This document shows positions 3,772 through 14,041 of a stretch of DNA of 14,041 bases, one piece after another. Each line of letters starts with the position of its first letter. The stretch's first letter is position 1. Below the pieces are notes generated by a model that did no database searches, was not told the origin of the DNA, and was given only the letters and a program-made list of their open reading frames with translations. This DNA comes from Spirochaetaceae bacterium (GTDB taxonomy: Bacteria > Spirochaetota > Spirochaetia > SZUA-6 > Bin103). The translations under genes and the position numbers were made by a program. The stretch lies in contig JAPOQV010000549.1 in the NCBI GenBank assembly GCA_026710565.1, positions 1 to 14,041 of the forward strand, read 5' to 3'.

Positions 3772-3792
3772 CATGCCCCAAATGCGGGACAA
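3772..3792. repeat. CCCC-AAT-GGG inverted-repeat element, diverged copy D
   Basis: Matches the element at 10860 at 18 of 21 positions (CATGCCCC, then AAT, then GGGACAA). The arms are CCCC at 3776-3779 and GGG at 3786-3788. It sits upstream of the tiny lipoprotein frame on the minus strand, at nearly the same distance from the Shine-Dalgarno as in the Lp2 and Lp3 leaders (about 45-50 bases). Role unknown; could be an operator, a terminator of an upstream unit or a REP-like repeat. Confidence 0.45.
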
Positions 3793-4540: not shown

Positions 4541-5548
4541 TCAACTGCCGCGGTAGGTCGGTTCCCGCCGGGGAGACTGCCTCGCCGCCAGCGACAGGAC
4601 CATGCGCACCAGGTCCGCACGCCGCGAGATGTTGAGCTTCAGGTGGATGCGCTTGGCCAGTTCGCGCACGGTGCTCTCCGCGCGATCCGTGGCGGATGCG
4701 ATGTCCCGCATCGTCGCGCCTTCGGCCAGGGCTGCCGCTACGCGGCCCTCCGCCGGCGTGAGTCCAAGACCCGCGGCGACGCTCTCCGGATCGATGCCGG
4801 GTTTCGCTGTCGGGTCGACGACCACGACCAACCCGGCGACGAGTCCGAACGCGAACCCCGCATCGCGGATGTCTGCCGGGATCACATGCACGGCCAAGCG
4901 CGGCCTTTGAGGCGACCGAGCCACCGTCATCGAGTCGCTGGCTCCGCAACGCCCGGGCTGCGACAGGGCATGTTCGAGTAACCGCGAGAGGCGTTCATCG
5001 TCGGTCGTCTGCTTCGCACGCAGGGACCCGCCCCGCTCCACCAGCCCGGCGCCCTCGCGCAAGATCTCCCGCGCACGGGTGTTGACCTGAACGATCAGGC
5101 CCCGCCAGTCCAGGCAGATCACCCCGACCATCATGTTGTCGAGCAGTCCGGCGAGCGAGGCAGCGACGGCTTCCGCGCCCACAAGCGCCTGGCGGACGCG
5201 CACGAACTGGCGGACGTGGGGTGCAAGACGCTCGATCATCGCCGTCTGCTCCGGGGTCCAGCCGCCGCGTGTCGTCGCGTTGGCGAGGGCCCAGATGACC
5301 TGCAATCCGTTCGCTCCATCCACGCGGATGCTCAGGCCGTCGCCGCGTACAGGCTTGTTTTCGCGACTCGCTGCACCCCCGATCGCCAGATGAGTGCCGG
5401 TAGTCCCGCACGCACGATCGATCAGCGCGGATGCCTCCCGCCAGCGACCGCCGTCCAGCATCGCTTCGTGCAGCGAATCGATGACACGGTCAAACAAGGC
5501 GTTCTTAGCATGTATCTTTATTGGGGGGGGGGGGTAACGGTGCTGCAC
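4541..5548 (-). CDS. LuxR-family transcriptional regulator with PAS-like sensor region
   Basis: 335-residue regulator. Residues 263-321 are a LuxR/GerE helix-turn-helix (LTPAEGRVAAALAEG, then DIASATDRAESTVRELAKRI), with the usual T-P-E/A-x-x-V start and recognition helix. Residues 133-180 resemble a PAS core (LDNMMVGVICLDWRGLIVQV). The N-terminal FDRVIDSLHEAMLDGGRW segment looks conserved, so a start must lie before residue 18. The only in-frame start upstream is GTG at 5548, which reads through a run of C (12 G on the plus strand). The nearer ATG is out of frame. No receiver domain with a phosphorylatable Asp is seen, so a ligand sensed through the N-terminal part is more likely. It lies downstream of and co-oriented with the uricase/HIU hydrolase genes, and might regulate purine breakdown; that is inference. 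The C-terminus TYRGS is oddly the same as that of the HIU hydrolase. Confidence 0.85.
   Translation of the reverse strand: MQHRYPPPPIKIHAKNALFDRVIDSLHEAMLDGGRWREASALIDRACGTTGTHLAIGGAASRENKPVRGDGLSIRVDGANGLQVIWALANATTRGGWTPEQTAMIERLAPHVRQFVRVRQALVGAEAVAASLAGLLDNMMVGVICLDWRGLIVQVNTRAREILREGAGLVERGGSLRAKQTTDDERLSRLLEHALSQPGRCGASDSMTVARSPQRPRLAVHVIPADIRDAGFAFGLVAGLVVVVDPTAKPGIDPESVAAGLGLTPAEGRVAAALAEGATMRDIASATDRAESTVRELAKRIHLKLNISRRADLVRMVLSLAARQSPRREPTYRGS
5523..5534. repeat. 12-base poly-G tract at the 5' end of the LuxR gene
   Basis: Twelve consecutive G on the plus strand (C in the regulator's mRNA). The tract encodes four Pro at residues 6-9 if translation starts at GTG 5548. A change of one or two bases would break the frame between that start and the HTH domain. 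Homopolymers of this length slip during replication and also during sequencing, so the true length needs checking. Confidence 0.9.
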
Positions 5549-5661: not shown

Positions 5662-5681
5662 TGTCCCCCAATATGGGGACA
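5662..5681. repeat. GTCCCC-CAATAT-GGGGAC inverted repeat, copy E
   Basis: A 7-bp perfect stem, TGTCCCC (5662-5668) with GGGGACA (5675-5681), and a 6-base loop CAATAT. It lies between the HIU hydrolase stop (5814) and the LuxR start (5548), 117 bases before the latter. It shares the CCCC-n-AAT-GGGGACA pattern with the elements upstream of the lipoprotein genes, with one extra base in the centre. No T-run follows on either strand, which argues against a simple intrinsic terminator. Confidence 0.5.
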
Positions 5682-6161: not shown

Positions 6162-7012
6162 CACTCTCTCCGGAGCGTCACTTCGATCTGGCCGCTCGGC
6201 TCGTCAGTGGGCACGAACAGCTTGCCGCGAGCGTCCTTCCCAAACGGGGAGAGGTCGATCGGCAGATAGTGGACGTTGGGCATCCGCAGGGTGATCTCGC
6301 GGACTTCGGGCGCGGTGGCGAGCGCCGCCTCGCCCATCCGATACAGGCTGTCCTGCACCGAGGGGCTGTAGGTGGTAGCGAAGACGCGAAGCAACGCCTC
6401 CCGGATCGTGCCGGCCACCGCGTCATAGTCTCCGCGTTCATGGAGCGTGCCGCCCTCGAACCGCCACGTGGCCGCCATGCGGGTTGCGAGGATGCGGTCG
6501 GTGGTCGGCGGCAGCGTGGTGTACTCGTCCTGCAGAAAGTCGACGAACCCGGAGCCCGTGGTCTTCATGATCGCGAAGTCCTGAAAGCCGGCTTCGACCT
6601 CCCGCGAAGACCGGTTCACGGTCGCGCAGGCGAACGGCGTTCCGCCTTCCGCTCTCACGAAGCCGTGCTCGTGCTCGCGGCCGTCAACACGCATGCGACC
6701 CCAGACCGTCTCCTCGACCCGGACGCACGCTTCGGAAACCTGCCGGTAGCGGTCCAGGAAGCACTGCCCGATGGTCAGGGCGAACGACTCGTTGGCCGCG
6801 TCCAGGTGCTCGAGCGCCAGAACGTTGACCAGGTTCTTCATGGTGTCGGTTGCCACGATCGATGCGTTGTCGGCGTCCGTGTAGGCTCGGGAGAACTCGC
6901 CGTCCAGGATGACGTTGACACGGCCCTCTCGCGCCTGGTGACGATGCCCGTCCCGCTGCACGCGCAACACACGGACGTTGGCCTTTCCGTAGCGCTGTCG
7001 AACGAATGGCAT
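6161..7012 (-). CDS. pucL: Urate oxidase (uricase)
   Basis: Cofactor-free oxidation of urate to 5-hydroxyisourate, releasing hydrogen peroxide. 283 residues, cytosolic. The catalytic Lys10 and Thr57 fall at the same numbers as in the Aspergillus enzyme when ATG 7012 is used, which decides the start although its ribosome site is weak. His248 in PNVHYLPIDLSPFG is the third triad member, with Asn246 beside it. Substrate-site residues are visible: Phe in TGSGFVDFL, Arg in TDRILATRM, and Gln in SVQDSLYRM. The sequence NASIVATDTMKN is the uricase signature. It is the first gene of a two-gene unit with HIU hydrolase and supplies the step after XdhAB. An in-frame extension to 7144 has no family-like sequence and is rejected. 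Confidence 0.95.
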   Translation of the reverse strand: MPFVRQRYGKANVRVLRVQRDGHRHQAREGRVNVILDGEFSRAYTDADNASIVATDTMKNLVNVLALEHLDAANESFALTIGQCFLDRYRQVSEACVRVEETVWGRMRVDGREHEHGFVRAEGGTPFACATVNRSSREVEAGFQDFAIMKTTGSGFVDFLQDEYTTLPPTTDRILATRMAATWRFEGGTLHERGDYDAVAGTIREALLRVFATTYSPSVQDSLYRMGEAALATAPEVREITLRMPNVHYLPIDLSPFGKDARGKLFVPTDEPSGQIEVTLRRE

Positions 7013-7422
7013 GGATCGACGCTCAATCCCGTCGCTCGGTGCCGCGCGGTTGGTCTCGGCAGGCTTCGAGGTCGAACGTACCGCGCCCACGGCGAATCCT
7101 GGCGTGCAACGGGACCAAGCGAGCGTGTTCCACACGCCGGGCACGCAGCAGAAACCCCTCCGTGCTCCCCTCTATGCCGTAGGCTGGAGTGGTGAGCTGC
7201 CGCGTTGCGGCGACCTTGACGAGCACAATCGGCTACTCCTCCCCATACGCTATGGGAGTGAGAGCACTCCGTCAATCGCCCACCGGTAGCGAGGTCTTTC
7301 ACAAGACCCCACTACCCTCCCCACCCTACGCGACCCGCCTTTCGAGTCTTCCGGACTCAGGCACCCCGCGCTGGCGCGCCAAGCGCTCGTCAGCTACCGT
7401 GACTCAGCGTCGCGGCGTACGG
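7013..7422. other. Gene-poor stretch upstream of uricase
   Basis: About 410 bases with no coding region I can support. It should contain the uricase/HIU hydrolase promoter. Two small structures are visible. One is a perfect inverted repeat GCGTGT-TCC-ACACGC at 7123-7137, 111 bases before the uricase start, which could be a regulator site. The other is a hairpin CTCCCCATA/TATGGGAG at 7237-7256. Neither is followed by a T-run. Confidence 0.4.
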
Positions 7423-7830
7423 TCATCGTGGCGGACACTCGGTGACGAGATGGGCCCAGTTCCTGGTCGCCACGCGTTCGATCGCTGCACCAGGTCCGGC
7501 ATTGTAGCGATCGATCCAGTCCTGATACGCGGATACCGGCTGCTCGCCGACAATGATCTGCCCGAACAGGGTCATCGATTCGTGCATGAAATCCCCATTC
7601 GCGGCGAGTAGATCGGTACCACCATCGACAGCGTTGACGAAGGACTGCGTCAACACACAGACGTTGTTCGGCCCGAGGATGCCGTTCGGGCTGAAGCGCA
7701 CCTGGTTGACGTAGTTCACTCGCTCCGAATCGATCCAGTCGGGGTCTCCCAGTAACGCGAAGATATTCAGGCCCAGAGGCGTACTGCGCGCAATGACTCC
7801 AAGACCCAGACCGCTGAATTCGGGCGGCGG
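7423..7830 (-). pseudogene. 3' remnant of a probable extracellular solute-binding protein
   Basis: An open frame of 135 residues without a credible start, bounded upstream by TGA at 7831-7833. The reading begins PPPEFSGLGLGVIARS and continues to a C-terminal GQIIVGEQPVSAYQDWID. This pattern (a small motif I-x-GE-x-P followed by A/F-x-x-W/F and a glycine-rich turn before the last helix) resembles the end of ABC-transporter sugar/peptide binding proteins of the SBP-1 type. The N-terminal two thirds, including any signal peptide, are missing. The Lp1 stop is only 9 bases upstream, so Lp1 may have replaced the 5' part. GTG at 7719 could start a 98-residue peptide, but without a convincing ribosome site. 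Family assignment is tentative. Confidence 0.4.
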
Positions 7831-7839
7831 TCATGATTG

Positions 7840-9165
7840 TCACCATTTGCATGGCTCCCGGTTTGAACTCGGCTCGCGGGTCAGCGTGAGCCAGTAGTCA
7901 CCGTAGGGGAATCGAGGATTGTCCTTCCACACGGCTGCAATCTGTTCCTGTACCGGCAGGGCGTGCCCCGGCCAGAGCTGTTCAGACCACCATGTGGACA
8001 TGACGATGACGTCCTGTCTGTCGGTAGGCGCATAGGCGTTGCGCCATGTCTTGTTGTCGAACACTTCAACGTTGACGGCGCGTCTCTCGCGGACATTCGA
8101 CGTCGTATTGGTAAACGTGATGAACAGTTCGGATTGATCCAGGGTCAGCGTGCCGTGGAAACACTGCGGCGGGTACGGATCCGCACCAGGGGAGGGCCTT
8201 GACGCGAATTCAGGCTCCGACACGACCTCCATGGTCACGGTGTCGTCCGCGCGCAGTATGAACCGCCACGTCTCTGTGAACGTCCACGTTCCTTCCACGT
8301 TCTCGTATCTCGGACCTGCCCAAGAGCCGATCATCGACGCCGGGAGCGGGTTCTCCACCTTTGTGTAACGCTCGCGGTCGACAGTCATCGGAGCAGGATC
8401 ACCCCAATCCCACGGGTCGACCACCAAGTCGGCTCCATCGAACGTGAACTGCTTGGCAACGGACTGTATCGACTGCGTTTCGCCGTCGTACCACGTCTTC
8501 GTCAAAGTGGATCCGGAGATGCTCCAGCCTCCGCTCTGCTGGTAGCCCACATCGGTGGCGTGCCAGATCCAGCGGCTTGCCGTAAACGTGAGCGTCACGG
8601 TCTCGATATCGCCGCCTTCGTCGATGTCGATCTGCGCGCGATACGTGCCGATCAGACCGCGGGCCGGATCCATCATGGGAAGCGGCTCGCTGGTGGCGGT
8701 CGCACCGGGCGCCACCGTCAGGTGGATCATCCCGTCATCGGCAGCCGCAACGGTCAGATCGAACGTATCCCCGACGGTCACAACGGTGCCGCAGTCGTCG
8801 CCAACGCAACCCGTGATCTTTAGCGTTACGGCACCGCCTCCTGCCTCACCGGGCTCCACCTCCCAGGTGCCCGTCACCACGGTTGCTCTCAGCACCTCGC
8901 CATCGTGTCCGGCGTGCCGCGCCATCGACGCGGCTGCGTGGGTGACGGTCGTCACCCGCCTGAATGTCCGGTCGTCGTAGAGGTCGTACGTCACGGTCAC
9001 CCCATCGCCGTCGTCGTTTGCGTAGTGGGCGCTCCAACGGCCGACCAGATCCTCCGCAGCCACCGGTGTGTCCTTGACCGGCGTCGTAGCCGGGCACCCG
9101 ACGAGAACCAGGGCAAGGACAAGGGCGCCGACTATTGGCACCACATCGACCCGCATCACGTTCAT
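7840..9165 (-). CDS. Lp1: lipoprotein with three lipocalin-like modules
   Basis: 441-residue secreted lipoprotein. ATG 9165 has AAAGGAG (complement at 9174-9180) eight bases upstream and gives a signal peptide with hydrophobic core VGALVLALVLVGC, Cys24 being the lipidated residue. An upstream extension to 9252 is Arg-rich and would destroy the signal peptide. Three segments begin with the same pattern, hydrophobic-I/V-G-R/T/S-W/Y: LVGRW at 40, LIGTY at 171 and MIGSW at 278. Each is followed by alternating beta-strand-like sequence. The second contains VTLTFTASRWIW, close to VDYVTFTASRYVL in Lp3. The C-terminal FPYGDYWLTLT also matches FPHGGYWEIWTL at the Lp3 end, so the two are paralogues. 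Cys120 and Cys125 could form a disulfide. Ligand unknown; the lipocalin-like assignment rests on pattern only. Confidence 0.8.
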   Translation of the reverse strand: MNVMRVDVVPIVGALVLALVLVGCPATTPVKDTPVAAEDLVGRWSAHYANDDGDGVTVTYDLYDDRTFRRVTTVTHAAASMARHAGHDGEVLRATVVTGTWEVEPGEAGGGAVTLKITGCVGDDCGTVVTVGDTFDLTVAAADDGMIHLTVAPGATATSEPLPMMDPARGLIGTYRAQIDIDEGGDIETVTLTFTASRWIWHATDVGYQQSGGWSISGSTLTKTWYDGETQSIQSVAKQFTFDGADLVVDPWDWGDPAPMTVDRERYTKVENPLPASMIGSWAGPRYENVEGTWTFTETWRFILRADDTVTMEVVSEPEFASRPSPGADPYPPQCFHGTLTLDQSELFITFTNTTSNVRERRAVNVEVFDNKTWRNAYAPTDRQDVIVMSTWWSEQLWPGHALPVQEQIAAVWKDNPRFPYGDYWLTLTREPSSNREPCKW

Positions 9166-9322
9166 CGCTCCATCTCCTTTGGCCTCTGGGAGTGGGCAGC
9201 GCCGCCGGTATCGAGGCAACGGGCTGCACCGTTCGTTTCGTCGTCGGCTCATCTCTCCTCACGGGTGTTCCCCCCGCACACCCCCAGGGCCCGGTTATTC
9301 TGCGGCCCATGCGGAGACGTGT

Positions 9323-9345
9323 CGTACCCTGAATTGGGGACGGCC
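9323..9345. repeat. CCC-GAATT-GGGGAC element, copy C
   Basis: Matches the Lp2/Lp3 leader element at 18 of 23 positions, with the core GAATTGGGGAC identical. One arm is weakened (CCCT against GGGG). It lies 160 bases upstream of the Lp1 start, further away than in the other lipoprotein leaders, and the DNA between it and the ribosome site is not recognisably related to the 76-bp repeat. Confidence 0.5.
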
Positions 9346-9535
9346 AAGACTATTTCCTGAGTCGACGAGTCGGGGGTGAGATAGGCGACACCACCCAAGG
9401 CCACCCGGCCGGATCCGCCACGATCGGGTGCGCGGTCTGCCGCTCGCCGTCACAGGTCCGCCACGTACCTGCGCGGGTGTCGAGGTCGCCTACGTCAGCG
9501 GGAAGTACCGGATGCGGTTCCTTCTCAGTAAGTGC

Positions 9536-9567
9536 GAGCCCGCCCGCTGGCTTCTGCAGGCGGGCTC
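9536..9567. terminator. GC-rich hairpin downstream of Lp2
   Basis: Perfect 9-bp arms GAGCCCGCC (9536-9544) and GGCGGGCTC (9559-9567) with a 14-base loop, 69 bases beyond the Lp2 stop on the minus strand. No T-run on either side, so intrinsic termination is not assured. It may instead protect the mRNA 3' end. Confidence 0.3.
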
Positions 9568-9635
9568 AAGGGCACCGAAACGAACGCGTACGTACTAAGT
9601 CCGAAGAGCCGTCGATGCCAGGTGTGTCCGGGCCG

Positions 9636-10796
9636 CTAGTGAAGGGCGATGCCGTATGCGCCCGGCGCAGTTCCCACAACAACCTCGATGCCAGTTCCAT
9701 CAAGGTTGGCGCGTCGGATAGTACCGCCACGCTCTGCCCAATATATCTTTTTGGAGATTGCATCTACGGTGATTCCTGCTGGTTCATCCACGTCCGCATT
9801 GTTGGTCACAATTTGCTCAATCTCCGATCCGTCCAAGTTGGCCCGTGTAACGTTCATCTCTGACCGTCCGTGAGTCCAGTACAGCTTCTGGTTCACTGGA
9901 TCGACCGCGAGGCCATAGGGCGCTGCCAAACCGCTGGTCGTTACCGTCCGAATGTCAGACCCGTCGAGCTCGGCGCTCTGGATAGCATCACCCCCATCGT
10001 CTATCCAGTATATCCGCCTGCCAATAGGGTCAAGGGCTATTGCGGTGACAAACGACAGATCGGAGACGATCTCCTCATATTCGTTCCCATCCAGGTTGGC
10101 GCGATAGATATTGCTTCCCTCATCGCTGGACCAGTACATCTTGCCGCCTGCGAGGTCCAAATCGAGCGATCTCAGATTCAGATCTACGTCTACGATTTCC
10201 TCTACTTCGGAACCGTCCAAGTTAGCCCGTCGAATCATACCCGTAATGTAATCGGTCCAGTACATCTTGCCGCTTGGGACATCCAGCGCGATTCCATGTG
10301 GCTCGACTGTGCTGAGCGACAGGATCTTCGTTACGCCAGTGCCGTCGAGATTAGCGCTCATGATTGCTCCTTCGGTGAAGCGGAAGTCGGTCCAGTACAC
10401 CTTGGTGTGCATGACTACAACCGCGAACTTCAGCGGAACAGTGTCGCCGTCCTCGTCGGTGGCGCTGTAGGTCAGGTCATGGCTACCGACAGCGACCGGC
10501 ATGCCGCTGACGGTTCGCGTGGCCGGATCGAAGCTCAGCCCCTGAGGTATCGGCGTCACCGTGTAGGTCAGATCGCCGTTCCCGCCAGTCGCCGCCGGAA
10601 GCTGTACCGGGAAGGGGAGCGCGACGCGGACCGGCAAGGGCGGGATCTCGGGGATGGTCTGGGTTCCGAAGCTTGGCTTGGTGTCCGGCTCAGGGGGTGG
10701 CTCGTCCATCTTGGGGGTCGTTCCCCCACAACTCGCGAGCAGGGCCGTCGTGGCTACGGCTACCACGATCATGGCGATGCGTCTGATGATTGGCAT
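9636..10796 (-). CDS. Lp2: lipoprotein with putative Ig-like domain and YWTD beta-propeller
   Basis: 386-residue lipoprotein. The signal peptide is MPIIRRIAMIVVAVATT followed by lipobox LLASC with Cys23. A Pro-rich linker (31-60) follows. Residues 57-129 fit the He_PIG/putative Ig fold (PAATGGNGDLTYTVTP, then FDPATRTVSGMP). Residues 130-386 hold six LDL-receptor class B repeats, with YW at 134, 179, 221, 263, 306 and 352, spaced 42-46 apart. Each is followed by an ANLDG- or ELDG-type turn. Six repeats make one complete propeller, a fold used for protein or glycan contacts. ATG 10796 has AAAGGAG 11 bases upstream, inside the 76-bp repeat. It is probably displayed on an outer membrane or cell surface. 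The repeats are too regular for a decaying gene. Ligand unknown. Confidence 0.87.
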   Translation of the reverse strand: MPIIRRIAMIVVAVATTALLASCGGTTPKMDEPPPEPDTKPSFGTQTIPEIPPLPVRVALPFPVQLPAATGGNGDLTYTVTPIPQGLSFDPATRTVSGMPVAVGSHDLTYSATDEDGDTVPLKFAVVVMHTKVYWTDFRFTEGAIMSANLDGTGVTKILSLSTVEPHGIALDVPSGKMYWTDYITGMIRRANLDGSEVEEIVDVDLNLRSLDLDLAGGKMYWSSDEGSNIYRANLDGNEYEEIVSDLSFVTAIALDPIGRRIYWIDDGGDAIQSAELDGSDIRTVTTSGLAAPYGLAVDPVNQKLYWTHGRSEMNVTRANLDGSEIEQIVTNNADVDEPAGITVDAISKKIYWAERGGTIRRANLDGTGIEVVVGTAPGAYGIALH

Positions 10797-10806
10797 GGGT
10801 CTGCTA

Positions 10807-10882
10807 TCTCCTTTTGCAGAGGCTGCTCAAGCATCGTCCGCTACTGTCCGCCAGCGCGGCATGCCCCGAATTGGGGACAACC
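10807..10882 (-). repeat. 76-bp exact direct repeat, copy A: leader of Lp2
   Basis: Identical over all 76 positions to 12847-12922. Read on the minus strand it begins with the inverted repeat CCCC-AATTC-GGGG (arms at 10864-10867 and 10873-10876). It then has about 35 bases without clear promoter hexamers, a small GCAG-CCT-CTGC hairpin and the Shine-Dalgarno AAAGGAG used by Lp2. It is one base from the stop of the adenine deaminase remnant. Confidence 0.95.
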
Positions 10883-10883
10883 G

Positions 10884-11037
10884 CTATTGGATCACCGGGA
10901 TGCGGTGAAGAAGCCCGAGACCTCGACCAGGGCGATCACGTTCCGTCGCGCACCGCCAGGGTCGCGGTCACCGTGCCGGCTCGGCTTGCGGCGTCCACCG
11001 CGACATCCCGGGCGGCCAGGGGCCGAGGTACCCGGTA
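10884..11037 (-). pseudogene. Adenine deaminase remnant with internal deletions and frameshift
   Basis: Read on the minus strand this encodes RVPRPLAARDVAVDAASRAG, then TVTATLAVRDG. That matches RVPRPLAAEDFAVDAGGRTG, SVTA and TLKVRDG of the ade gene at 12924, with about 17 residues missing between the two parts. A larger deletion then joins it to LVEVSGF and, in a shifted frame, HRIPVIQ-stop, matching the ade C-terminus LVDVSRFTHIPVIQ. About 205 residues of ade are reduced to about 50. The DNA also matches, for example GCGTCCACCGCGA in both. It cannot make a functional enzyme. It sits just upstream of Lp2 exactly as intact ade sits just upstream of Lp3, showing that the ade-leader-lipoprotein block was duplicated. 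Confidence 0.85.
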
Positions 11038-11137
11038 GAGCATCGACCATCCCCACGTTGTACCGCGGTCTTGTTTCCGGCAGTCGTCCGGCGATGGGGT
11101 GACGGCGTGTCTGCACGATGGAAGCTGCGAAGGCGGC

Positions 11138-11290
11138 GTGAGAGAACGGCAGGAGCTGGACCATGTGATCCAGCTCCTCGCGGGAGTGGGCCAGTCCCTC
11201 CACGCCATCTCCCAGTACCTGGACATCCCCAACGAGGACGACGAAGACCAGGAGCCGACCGGCGTGCCGGGCTTCATGGACGATGACTGA
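11138..11290 (+). CDS. Small acidic protein, 50 aa, unknown function
   Basis: I do not recognise the family. GTG 11138 is preceded by GAAGG six bases upstream; a longer form from GTG 11099 would add a Cys-containing lead without a ribosome site. The peptide has an amphipathic helix-like first half (RERQELDHVIQLLAGVGQSL, then HAISQYLDIP) and a strongly acidic tail ending FMDDD. Codon choice is normal for the window. Its stop overlaps the start of the next small frame (ATGACTGA), so they form a coupled pair on the plus strand, opposite to all surrounding genes. Small helical acidic proteins of this kind occur in phage and mobile-element cargo, but no integrase or phage gene is nearby. Confidence 0.5.
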   Translation: MRERQELDHVIQLLAGVGQSLHAISQYLDIPNEDDEDQEPTGVPGFMDDD

Positions 11291-11476
11291 GGACCAGACC
11301 CAGCTCATGGTCGAGGCCCTGACCCGGCTGGTCGATGAGCAGGATGCGGCTGGTCCGCATCGACCGATCCCCTGATCCGGCTCCAGGAGTGGCACGGCAA
11401 CCTGAACGAGAAGCTGGACTCGCTGGTCACCGCGGTGGTGGCCGGCAAGGCCCACGGGCTGAACTGGTGGTTGTGA
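11283..11476 (+). pseudogene. Second small helical protein of the pair, frameshifted
   Basis: ATG 11283 overlaps the preceding stop by 8 bases. The frame reads MTEDQTQLMVEALTRLVDEQ, then drifts and stops at 11373-11375 after 30 residues. One frame over, the sequence continues as a plausible helix-rich tail (DPLIRLQEWHGNLNEKLDSL, then VTAVVAGKAHGLNWWL) to TGA 11474-11476. That tail has no start of its own. The simplest reading is one gene of about 64 residues with an indel near 11340-11365. Programmed shifting is possible, but no slippery heptamer is evident. Family unknown. Confidence 0.5.
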
Positions 11477-11548
11477 GGTTGCAGGGGGCCGCCAGGGGGT
11501 TGACGGAGCAATGGCGGCTGGCCTTAAGGTTGCCGGCAGGGTGAGTCG

Positions 11549-11581
11549 GGCGGGCGCGAAAGCATCCCCTCCGCGCCCGCC
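11549..11581. other. Perfect 10-bp GC hairpin
   Basis: GGCGGGCGCG (11549-11558) pairs fully with CGCGCCCGCC (11572-11581) across a 13-base loop. It lies 73 bases after the end of the small plus-strand genes. There is no T-run on the plus side. It may be the first part of a double terminator with the hairpin at 11642. Confidence 0.4.
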
Positions 11582-11641
11582 TGAGCTACATTACCTCGCG
11601 AGCCGGGCCAAGATCCCGATTCATGGGGCATCACCTCCTTG

Positions 11642-11674
11642 CGAGCCCTGGCTGCTGAATACAGCCAGGGCTCG
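11642..11674 (+). terminator. Intrinsic terminator, 13-bp perfect stem
   Basis: CGAGCCCTGGCTG (11642-11654) pairs fully with CAGCCAGGGCTCG (11662-11674) across a 7-base loop, followed on the plus strand by TCGTTTCTC. That orientation ends the small plus-strand pair. In the other direction it lies 43 bases after the Lp3 stop but lacks a T-run, so it would act weakly if at all. Confidence 0.6.
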
Positions 11675-11716
11675 TCGTTTCTCACGACATTGAATACCGA
11701 GGGGCGCCCGCCTGGG

Positions 11717-12841
11717 TCACGGCGCTTGCAGCGTCCAGATCTCCCAGTAGCCCCCGTGCGGGAACTCGTCGGGCATGGACTCGGGGTAGAAGCTGGAGGT
11801 CCTGATGGCCACCTGTCCTGCGATCAAGCGAGACGGGACATACGCGATGCGCGGAGCCGGATCAGTGTCACCGATGTCCTCCGGCGGGCCTCCGTGCGGG
11901 GTCCATGTCTCAATTACATTCGACAGATTGAGGAACAGGTGGTCAGGGTCGTGCGTCCAGGAGGCCGTGAGCATCCATACGCCATCGGGCTCATCGGTCC
12001 TCCAGGAGAACGAGCCGTCCGCTGACACGGTCATCGTGTGGACATTCACTTCGTCCTCGCGATTCCACACGCCAATCGGCGGAATGTACGCTGACGTATT
12101 CACCCGAGTCATCCAGTCCGTGTTCCAGGCAGAGCCAGGTGGAGAGTCGTCTGCCCATTCTCCCACGATCAGTTCGTCGTCGGAGATCAGGAAGTAGGGC
12201 TTCGCCAATCGCCGCTCCGTGTGTGGCGTCTCGTCGTTGTCGTCGTGGTTGCCATACAAGATCTGCACGATCTCCTCGTCGCCCAGCTCCCACGTCCCTT
12301 CGCTATGCCATACGTAGACGAAGGCGCCGAAATCGTCGTAATGCCCGCGCTCAAGAACGTACCGGGATGCCGTGAACGTCACATAATCCACGATCGTGCC
12401 GTCCTCGACTCCGCGGTTATCGTCTCCCCACCCCCTCTCGACACGCCACGTGCCGAGAATGCGATCTCTGTCTGTTCGGGGACTGGCGGCCACAGTGACG
12501 GTGAACCGCACCGACTCCATCGTCCCGCCCGTCGCCGGGTCCTTGGCCGTGTAGGTCATCGGGTAGACGCCCGGCGTGGTCGGCGTCCCACTCAGAACCC
12601 TGGTCGCGGGGTCGAACGCGAGCCCCGGCACGGCCGGCGACAGCGAGTACACCAGGCTCTCCCCGCCCGTGGCGGCCGGCAGGGGGTAGGAGACCTCCTT
12701 CCCGACAGTCATTCCCGGAATCGCGACCGTAAGGCCCTTGGCCGGGAACCTGACTTCGGGGACGGCCGTCCCCTGGCACCCGGCCAGGACGATGCCGGCC
12801 GCCGTCAGGGCCGCGGCGAGGGCGATCATCTTGCTCTTCAT
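11717..12841 (-). CDS. Lp3: lipoprotein with putative Ig-like domain and lipocalin-like modules
   Basis: 374-residue lipoprotein. ATG 12841 follows AAAGGAG within the 76-bp repeat, and gives a clean signal peptide (MKSKMIALAAALTAAGIVLA, then GC) with Cys22 lipidated; the 11-residue extension to 12874 is rejected. Residues 45-117 are a He_PIG-type domain (PLPAATGG, FDPATRVLSGTP), the same type as in Lp2. Residues 128-245 open with ILGTWRVER and contain VDYVTFTASRYVL, like module 2 of Lp1. A second similar start, PIGVW, is at 255. The C-terminus FPHGGYWEIWTL matches the Lp1 end. So Lp3 combines the front of Lp2 with the back of Lp1. It lies 82 bases downstream of ade on the same strand and could be cotranscribed. 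Function unknown; probably a surface or periplasmic binding protein. Confidence 0.85.
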   Translation of the reverse strand: MKSKMIALAAALTAAGIVLAGCQGTAVPEVRFPAKGLTVAIPGMTVGKEVSYPLPAATGGESLVYSLSPAVPGLAFDPATRVLSGTPTTPGVYPMTYTAKDPATGGTMESVRFTVTVAASPRTDRDRILGTWRVERGWGDDNRGVEDGTIVDYVTFTASRYVLERGHYDDFGAFVYVWHSEGTWELGDEEIVQILYGNHDDNDETPHTERRLAKPYFLISDDELIVGEWADDSPPGSAWNTDWMTRVNTSAYIPPIGVWNREDEVNVHTMTVSADGSFSWRTDEPDGVWMLTASWTHDPDHLFLNLSNVIETWTPHGGPPEDIGDTDPAPRIAYVPSRLIAGQVAIRTSSFYPESMPDEFPHGGYWEIWTLQAP

Positions 12842-12846
12842 TTCGT

Positions 12847-12922
12847 TCTCCTTTTGCAGAGGCTGCTCAAGCATCGTCCGCTACTGTCCGCCAGCGCGGC
12901 ATGCCCCGAATTGGGGACAACC
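12847..12922 (-). repeat. 76-bp exact direct repeat, copy B: leader of Lp3
   Basis: Same 76 bases as 10807-10882, offset by exactly 2040. It fills nearly the whole gap between the ade stop (12924) and the Lp3 start (12841). It carries the inverted repeat (CCCC at 12904-12907, GGGG at 12913-12916) and the Lp3 ribosome site. On both sides the two loci diverge at once: on the gene side after the Shine-Dalgarno, on the ade side within one or two bases. Confidence 0.95.
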
Positions 12923-12923
12923 C

Positions 12924-13967
12924 CTACTGGATCACGGGGATGTGGGTGAAGCGGGAGACGTCGACCAGACCCAGGTCGGAGATGCGCAGTTCGGGGATCA
13001 CGGCCAGCGCCAGCAGGCTGAGCTGCATGTAGCCGTTGTTGAGTGCGCAGCCGCATTCGGTGAGCGCCCGCATGACGCGGGCCGACTTCTCCGCCACCAC
13101 GCCGGCCCGCTCGTCGGACATCAGCCCGCCGATCGGAAGCTCGACCAGCGCGATCAGCGTGTCGTCGCTCACCACGGCCACGCCGCCGCCGGCGTCGATC
13201 AGCGCGTTCGCGGCCCGCGTCATGTTCGCGGCACAGGTCCCGGTCACCAGGAGGTGGTGGCAGTCATGTGCGACGGTGGTGGCCACTCCGCACGCAGCGT
13301 CGAAGCCGAAGCCCTGCACGAAGCCGTTCACGACCCTGCCGGTCCCGTGGTGGCGCTCCACCAGCGCCAGGGGCAGCACGTCTTGCGCGGGGTCGGGATG
13401 CACGGCGCCGTCGCGCACCTTTAGCGTCGCGGTCAGGTGGCGGGTGGCGGCGTGGTTCTCGATCACGCCGATCACGTTGGCCGTCACCGAGCCCGTGCGC
13501 CCGCCGGCGTCCACCGCGAAGTCCTCGGCGGCGAGAGGCCGCGGCACTCGGACCGAGCGGCGGAAGCGCTCTTCGTGTTTCCAGGGCGGCAGGTCGAGGA
13601 GCAGCCTCCCCTCCTCGGCCGCCACCTCGCCGCGGGCGATCACCGTCCCGGCAGCAAACTCGTCGAGATCCTCCACCAGCACCACGTCGGCGTAACGGCC
13701 CGGCGCCAGGCAGCCCAGATCGCGGTCGACGCCGAAGTTCTGGGCGGTGTTGATGGTGGCCATCTGCAGGGCGATCAACGGGTCGAGGCCGAGCCCGATC
13801 GCATGGCGCAGTACGCGGTCCATGTGACCCTCCGCCACCAGCGTGCCGGCGTGCACGTCGTCAGTGCACAGGATGAACTGGCGCGGGTCGAGGGCCCGCT
13901 CCGTGATTGCCGTGATCTGCGCGGCCACGTCGTACCAGGCCGACCCGAGCCGCAGCATCGGCCGCAT
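12924..13967 (-). CDS. ade: Adenine deaminase, C-terminal part (5' end cut or disrupted at window edge)
   Basis: Hydrolyses adenine to hypoxanthine and ammonia, feeding XdhAB. About 347 of a usual 570-600 residues are present. The end of the metal-dependent amidohydrolase domain is visible (FILCTDDVHAGTLVAEGHMD, with the metal-site Asp in CTDD, then ATINTAQNFGVDRDLG and the APGRYADVVLVEDL beta-sandwich strand). Next comes the adenine-deaminase C-terminal domain, with TVAHDCHHLLVTG and MQLSLLALAVIPELRISD. The protein ends THIPVIQ. Family sequence continues upstream of ATG 13967 as RRG, but within about 18 codons the frame meets TAG at 14025-14027, and the residues before it do not look like the family. 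This suggests either a sequence error in the G-rich edge or a broken gene. ATG 13967 is not the native start. Confidence 0.88.
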   Translation of the reverse strand: MRPMLRLGSAWYDVAAQITAITERALDPRQFILCTDDVHAGTLVAEGHMDRVLRHAIGLGLDPLIALQMATINTAQNFGVDRDLGCLAPGRYADVVLVEDLDEFAAGTVIARGEVAAEEGRLLLDLPPWKHEERFRRSVRVPRPLAAEDFAVDAGGRTGSVTANVIGVIENHAATRHLTATLKVRDGAVHPDPAQDVLPLALVERHHGTGRVVNGFVQGFGFDAACGVATTVAHDCHHLLVTGTCAANMTRAANALIDAGGGVAVVSDDTLIALVELPIGGLMSDERAGVVAEKSARVMRALTECGCALNNGYMQLSLLALAVIPELRISDLGLVDVSRFTHIPVIQ

Positions 13968-14041
13968 GCCGCGGCGGGGGGGGTCGACGGGGGCCCGCTC
14001 GCGCGGGGTGTCGGGGGTGTTGGTCTAAGCCCGGGCCGCGC

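Follow-up and report, generated by a model that had tools for sequence, protein, structure and literature searches.

Two copies of a 76-nt intergenic leader, identical to each other and each placed directly in front of a different lipoprotein gene, occur 2040 bases apart in the spirochaete contig of 14,041 bases that we analysed (hereafter the window). With moderate confidence we propose that an old local duplication copied the 3′ end of an adenine deaminase gene (ade) together with this leader, that the leader was later homogenised by conversion or re-copying, and that it serves both lipoprotein genes as promoter and 5′ UTR. The type of event is an ordinary and known one, and the host group, the spirochaetes concerned, is little studied.

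Two identical leaders precede different lipoprotein genes

A repeat search within the 14,041-base contig showed that positions 10807–10882 and 12847–12922 match at 76/76 sites, as claimed in a preliminary description of this DNA. The two stretches open a direct repeat of 99 nt (10807–10905 and 12847–12945, 96% identity, start-to-start distance 2040), in which the first 76 nt all match and the last 23 nt match at 19 of 23 sites. Chance is excluded as the source of an exact 76-mer occurring twice in 14 kb. No third copy was found by this search in the 14,041-base window.

Both leaders lie on the minus strand and fill nearly all of the gap between an ade-derived 3′ end and a lipoprotein start. 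Leader A (12847–12922) spans from the ade stop to the Shine-Dalgarno sequence of the lipoprotein gene Lp3, leader B (10807–10882) from a remnant of ade to the Shine-Dalgarno sequence of Lp2. The edges are sharp, i.e., identity stops at the ade stop and at the Shine-Dalgarno sequence. On the minus strand, the 3′ limit of the 76 nt is found just past AAAGGAGA, from which the ATG is 10 nt away for Lp2 (10796) and 5 nt for Lp3 (12841); these two ATG codons are probably the starts in use. The leader also contains an ORF of 11 codons. We rejected the leader as lipoprotein coding sequence, since the reading frame of its ATG at offset 71 is that of Lp3 but not that of Lp2. The region upstream of Lp1, the remaining lipoprotein gene of the window, was likewise rejected as a third leader copy, because its alignment to the leader spans no more than 15 nt and is outscored by two unrelated regions.

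Lp3 (11717–12841, minus strand) and Lp2 (9636–10796, minus strand) were assigned as lipoproteins from lipoboxes recognised by eye. Both carry a He_PIG domain (Pfam PF05345), and Lp2 has LDL-receptor class B repeats (PF00058) in addition. The He_PIG domains of the two proteins share 43% identity over 80 amino acids. On the gene side of the leaders, blastn found nothing beyond short chance matches between the Lp2 and Lp3 DNA, and the earlier statement that the following coding sequences are very different is thus confirmed. Lp3 has 172 homologues; in the best 120 of these 172 the closest non-self match reaches 70%, and the three that carry an organism name are all Spirochaetaceae. For Lp2, six homologues among the matches listed (P0121–P0126) reach 81–87% at a query coverage of 95–100%, and a search of 394 genomes of the class with the Lp2 protein (E 1e-40) gave 0/394.

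The leader is better preserved than the ade remnant beside it

The ade gene (12924–13967, minus strand; PF13382 and PF01979) is present with the C-terminal part of adenine deaminase and continues past the window end. The nearest locus that we found for the window, L001 in genome G001, comes from an uncultured Spirochaetia MAG, and its ade protein is 85% identical. Behind leader B, the minus-strand stretch 10884–11035 consists of four colinear pieces of the ade 3′ part, is no longer a gene and matches the window ade at 121/152 sites. The pieces 10884–10930, 10922–10954, 10943–10970 and 10964–11035 correspond in order to 12924–12968, 13140–13173, 13408–13435 and 13480–13551, with E-values of 2.6e-4, 8.9e-4, 0.003 and 4e-8, respectively. 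The two middle pieces are short and weak when taken singly, the outer two are convincing alone.

In a piecewise comparison, with the borders of the pieces set by us and the alignment fitted to the window ade, 121/152 remnant sites agree with the window ade, 114/152 with the ade of L001, 100/152 with that of L134 and 97/149 with that of L135. At sites where the window and L001 ade differ, the remnant follows the window at 16, L001 at 9 and neither at 4, and the split of 16 vs 9 is not significant (sign test 0.23). One piece fits the L001 ade (54/67) better than the window ade (54/72). Judged by these alignments, the remnant is ade of this group. As it resembles the window ade hardly more than the L001 ade, it could stem from the neighbouring ade or from another ade lineage. 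If it came from a diverged ade, the identity of the leaders would still call for an explanation, and their age relative to the duplication would not be fixed.

Leader and remnant differ strongly in preservation (76/76 vs 121/152 sites, Fisher 1.7e-6), also when only the two stronger remnant pieces are counted (85/111 vs 76/76, Fisher 4e-7). With 31 changes at 152 remnant sites, an equal rate would give zero changes in 76 sites with P = 3e-8. The test assumes that leader and remnant were duplicated jointly, which we infer to have been the case. Even ageing of the leader and the ade-derived DNA is therefore rejected, in agreement with the preliminary description, which had argued that a simple old duplication should have decayed evenly and had not. 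It had also placed diverged ade sequence behind both leaders; the divergence is real (121/152), but on the Lp2 side there is a broken remnant and no second ade.

On these counts, homogenisation, re-copying or a very dense constraint is needed. Dense constraint is the essence of an explanation by purifying selection alone, which we regard as rather unlikely: the whole 76 bp would be a control region made up of operator, promoter, leader and ribosome site and would have remained unchanged since the duplication. Such a reading fits the fact that identity ends at functional borders, i.e., the ade stop and the Shine-Dalgarno sequence, and that a palindrome and the 11-codon ORF lie inside the 76 bp. 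However, at the divergence of the remnant, selection alone would have to freeze at least about 83% of the 76 sites and leave about 13/76 free at most, an unusually dense constraint. Absence of a relevant Rfam match and an RNA fold with a z of −0.22 also speak against it, as does the absence of the leader from 26 genomes of the order, which may, however, simply lack the lipoproteins.

Position and RNA properties of the leader

Both leaders sit where a promoter and a 5′ UTR are expected, and a promoter used by both Lp2 and Lp3 would be located in the leader. A scan of 7500–14041 for sigma-70-like promoters, the one promoter type covered, called 0 (shuffles gave a mean of 1.0). Rfam searches with E up to 1 found no match near the leader, and the sole match in the window lies far away and below threshold. 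Folding of the leader RNA was unremarkable, with a z of −0.22 for the 76 nt and of −0.69 and −1.86 with flanks. From the lack of a relevant Rfam family and the z of −0.22 we rejected a structured RNA leader.

Hairpins follow both genes on the minus strand, one at 11642–11674 behind Lp3 with perfect 13-bp arms (z −5.95) and one at 9536–9567 behind Lp2 (z −4.69). They have arms of 12–13 bp, are listed among 11 inverted-repeat pairs of the block described below and are possible terminators without a T run. If they end transcripts, Lp3 and Lp2 are separate units and leader B therefore needs its own promoter.

A leader that was probably duplicated and later homogenised

Among selection, conversion and a mobile unit, we prefer conversion or re-copying as the source of leader identity. 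In the sequence of events that we propose, an old local duplication would have set a second copy of the ade 3′ end and intergenic leader behind the Lp3 gene, and this second ade copy would have decayed into fragments. Two distantly related lipoprotein genes, Lp3 and Lp2, would each have become joined to one leader just past the Shine-Dalgarno sequence. Long after the neighbouring DNA had diverged, the 76-bp leader would have been made identical again; the most likely process is gene conversion over a short tract, or local re-copying, between the two direct repeats, which lie 2 kb from each other. Selection for a functional promoter and ribosome-binding site perhaps contributed. Ade-derived DNA is found on the same side of both leaders.

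If leader and remnant were duplicated jointly, the identity tract is far younger than its homologous flank, as is expected for gene conversion. A converted tract is likewise expected to have homologous flanks on both sides, but here homology is present on the ade side only; the leader therefore works like a gene-converted duplicate without being a proven member of that class. The flank without homology makes conversion harder. Against conversion, moreover, no donor or intermediate is seen in the single contig.

Should the leader have been homogenised, or be shared by design, it would offer a simple route for bringing unrelated lipoproteins under one start signal in a spirochaete. Already in its present form, the locus cleanly exemplifies an intergenic control region that differs in age from the decayed gene beside it. 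A further reading, which we consider most improbable, treats the two leaders as active recombination handles. Crossover between them would remove Lp3 with its segment of 2,040 bp, and Lp2 would come to lie directly behind ade and leader; a population could then switch the lipoprotein under one signal, and recombination itself would keep the handles identical.

The identity could also be an artefact. The window consists of one contig of 14,041 bases, and assemblers fail at exact repeats. A faulty contig, in which variants of several strains were joined or a repeat was resolved incorrectly, is nonetheless quite improbable: the two copies have different flanks and the assembler therefore had to pass the repeat twice, whereas a false join would, by reasoning, normally leave one copy. 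Also, a decayed ade remnant is no product of assembly.

Known systems resemble the locus in part. A report on the tandem duplicate PE_PGRS17/18 describes gene conversion in which one stretch appears younger than the rest (PMC1762029). The likeness lies in neighbouring duplicated segments with one seemingly younger stretch; unlike PE_PGRS17/18, the stretch is an intergenic leader here, the genes that follow it are not recent duplicates, and the data come from a single contig. Horizontal regulatory transfer is described as the exchange of an intergenic region for a divergent one at a single locus in different strains (PMC5890482). It shares with our case an intergenic control region whose history is unlike that of the flanking genes, but here one leader is present twice in one contig. 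The literature excerpts on mechanisms and hosts yielded no description of this locus.

No convincing further leader copy in relatives and collections

Searches for further leader copies covered relatives and sequence collections, with the species of the window itself outside them. The leader matched 0/26 genomes of the order at E 0.01, and in G001 a search with E up to 10 gave 25 matches, the best of 0.06, i.e., noise. The 394 class genomes are a sample of a larger group and overlap the order set; three of them had matches of 21–35 nt (among the matches listed, with at most two candidates scored per genome). These matches, in G199, G245 and G037, were rejected as real copies because they lie inside open frames of 650, 347 and 435 codons, respectively. 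The G037 match covers 20/21 nt at that end of the query where the palindrome lies (E 0.0098), and chance expects such matches in a few of 394 genomes. A gapped exact leader pattern occurred 0 times in genome_contigs and 0 times in viral_contigs, two exact 21–22-mers of the leader 0 times in viral_contigs, and the leader had 0 matches in plasmids and phages.

We also compared regions upstream of lipoprotein genes, using seven of ten loci of G002 and G003 (L107, L109 and L113 were left out, and the ten do not include loci lying inside giant frames in G001 and G003). The seven regions had no leader in common with one another or with the window. When they were compared together with the three of the window, Lp2–Lp3 was the only substantial pair; L106 and L112 had a 23-nt match (E 0.002).

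The preliminary description had suggested that the leader might itself be a mobile or recombination unit, and this suggestion is so far not supported, with no convincing further copy in the 26 order genomes, the 394 class genomes, genome contigs, viral contigs, plasmids and phages. In such a reading, the 76 bp would be one of several genome copies in front of lipoprotein genes, spread by recombination or a small mobile unit; we consider this distinctly unlikely. Two different lipoprotein genes are indeed joined at the same point past the Shine-Dalgarno sequence. Lp2-type genes also occur on other contigs, none of which was recognised as shared with ade among the 120 ade matches listed, a weak point given that these represent the longest contig per cluster. 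Against it stand the absence of a third copy from the window and of any copy from the 26 order genomes. The flanks of the two copies are unrelated on the gene sides but ade-derived on the other side, unlike independent insertions. The seven upstream regions of G002 and G003 likewise count against it. A Pfam scan of 16 window ORFs found no transposase.

A palindrome in the leader recurs in the window

A motif scan located the imperfect palindrome TGTCCCCAATTCGGGG at 12904–12919 in leader A and at 10864–10879 in leader B. Related palindromes lie upstream of Lp1 (9327–9342, 2 mismatches), upstream of a LuxR-type gene at 4541–5548 (5666–5681, 3 mismatches) and between xdhB and a Sel1-repeat gene (3776–3791, 3 mismatches). 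A small intergenic palindrome is a likeness to REP elements and RAYT transposases; differences are the mixed controls in relatives and the number of loose matches, no more than a few dozen in any genome.

Compatible with the other readings, TGTCCCCAATTCGGGG might be the operator of a shared regulon, bound by a local regulator such as the LuxR-type protein, which would control its own gene, Lp1, Lp2 and Lp3. With up to 3 mismatches, the window holds 5 sites vs 0.13 expected; every one is a minus-strand site, and none falls within a gene named here. A 13-base form of the palindrome gave 15 matches vs 1.26 expected, a count in which palindromic sites score on both strands. Given the rate found in relatives (48 in 14.6 Mb), the three extra sites have P 1.6e-5, or about 1e-3 after 61-fold correction, and in G001–G003 the motif exceeded its reversed control (48 vs 20; second scan, 5 vs 0).

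Nevertheless, we regard a regulon of this kind as very unlikely. The 16-mer was picked after the sites had been seen, and the best of 61 leader 16-mers had at least 3 extra matches in 72/200 model sequences. The looser form TGTCCCCNNNNNGGGG showed no excess, neither with 2 mismatches in the window (9 vs 10.0 expected) nor as exact matches in the 26 relatives (41 vs 52 reversed). The site at 3776 has no obvious minus-strand gene downstream. Of three genomes, only G003 has a relative of the LuxR-type gene, at 40%, and the 20 kb around this relative contain no such site. No TGTCCCCAATTCGGGG-type site was found in four stretches of relatives (L001, L134, L135 and L201), and over six genomes the motif gave 7 matches vs 5 for its reversed form. 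A regex built from the five sites matched 0 of 300 model sequences, which is circular and hence no evidence. Because the controls disagree, recurrence of the palindrome at three other intergenic spots is suggestive only.

The leaders are part of an extra block between uricase and ade

Lp1, Lp2, the ade remnant and Lp3 form a block at 7013–12922 (no strand assigned) between the uricase gene and ade; in G002 and G003, uricase and ade are direct neighbours. In the window, the distance from uricase (start at 7012) to the ade stop (12924) is about 5.9 kb and includes three lipoprotein genes. The gap between ade and uricase is 21 nt in G003 (L134), and the two frames overlap by about 13 nt in G002 (L135), where ade reaches into uricase; HIUase is next in both. 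The corresponding interval of L001 measures about 4.5 kb and contains other open frames. The leader is part of an extra block that is absent from G002 and G003. Searches of plasmids with the whole block gave 0 matches, and a prophage origin of 11036–11716 was rejected, as three ORFs in that stretch have no PHROGs match.

Formation of a uricase–ade operon in G002 and G003 is a possible alternative to insertion of the block. By ade DNA identity, G002 and G003 are each other's closest match (0.877); that of the window is G001 (0.835). From these relationships, the extra block is therefore likely to be an insertion in the lineage of the window.

Organization of the adenine deaminase/uricase junction

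In G003, one of the relatives, the junction between the adenine deaminase gene (ade) and the uricase gene is tight (12046–12068 of locus L134), and in a second relative, G002, both genes overlap (13761–13773 of locus L135). By contrast, differing multi-gene stretches occupy this junction in the window (7012–12924) and in the third relative, G001 (11044–15684 of locus L001). Across the window and G001–G003, this pattern resembles that of an insertion hot spot.

The window end (14017–14041) gave no alignment to the relatives' ade, with blastn matches stopping at 14004–14016; the unaligned nucleotides are possibly a contig-end error. At the opposite end, an ORF (42–1175) carries [2Fe-2S] and FAD-binding portions of an enzyme of the xanthine dehydrogenase type. 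Its counterpart in L134 (1333–2805) is split into two stretches with about 380 nt between them, and that in L135 is a single stretch.

Leader contents and lipoprotein upstream regions

An 11-codon ORF (MPRWRTVADDA) is predicted on the minus strand entirely within each copy of the 76-bp leader preceding Lp2 and Lp3, i.e., at 10827–10862 and 12867–12902. The end of the leader that bears the imperfect palindrome matched 21 nt (20 identical, E 0.0098) near position 1501 of L138, a stretch of the class-level genome G037. Judged by eye, this match lies within an open frame, at its extreme end, and is probably due to chance.

Three of the seven upstream regions compared carry the octamer TGTTACAA, i.e., at most 60 nt upstream of the lipoprotein start in the relatives' loci L112 and L117 (both G003) and L118 (G002). 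This octamer is possibly a promoter motif.

Matches to He_PIG, the domain found in Lp2 and Lp3, also occurred in giant open frames at G001:C2 1027839–1058585, G001:C2 206350 and G003:C79 28838–48394 (11,163, 6,595 and 7,398 aa, respectively), with multiple matches in the first and third.
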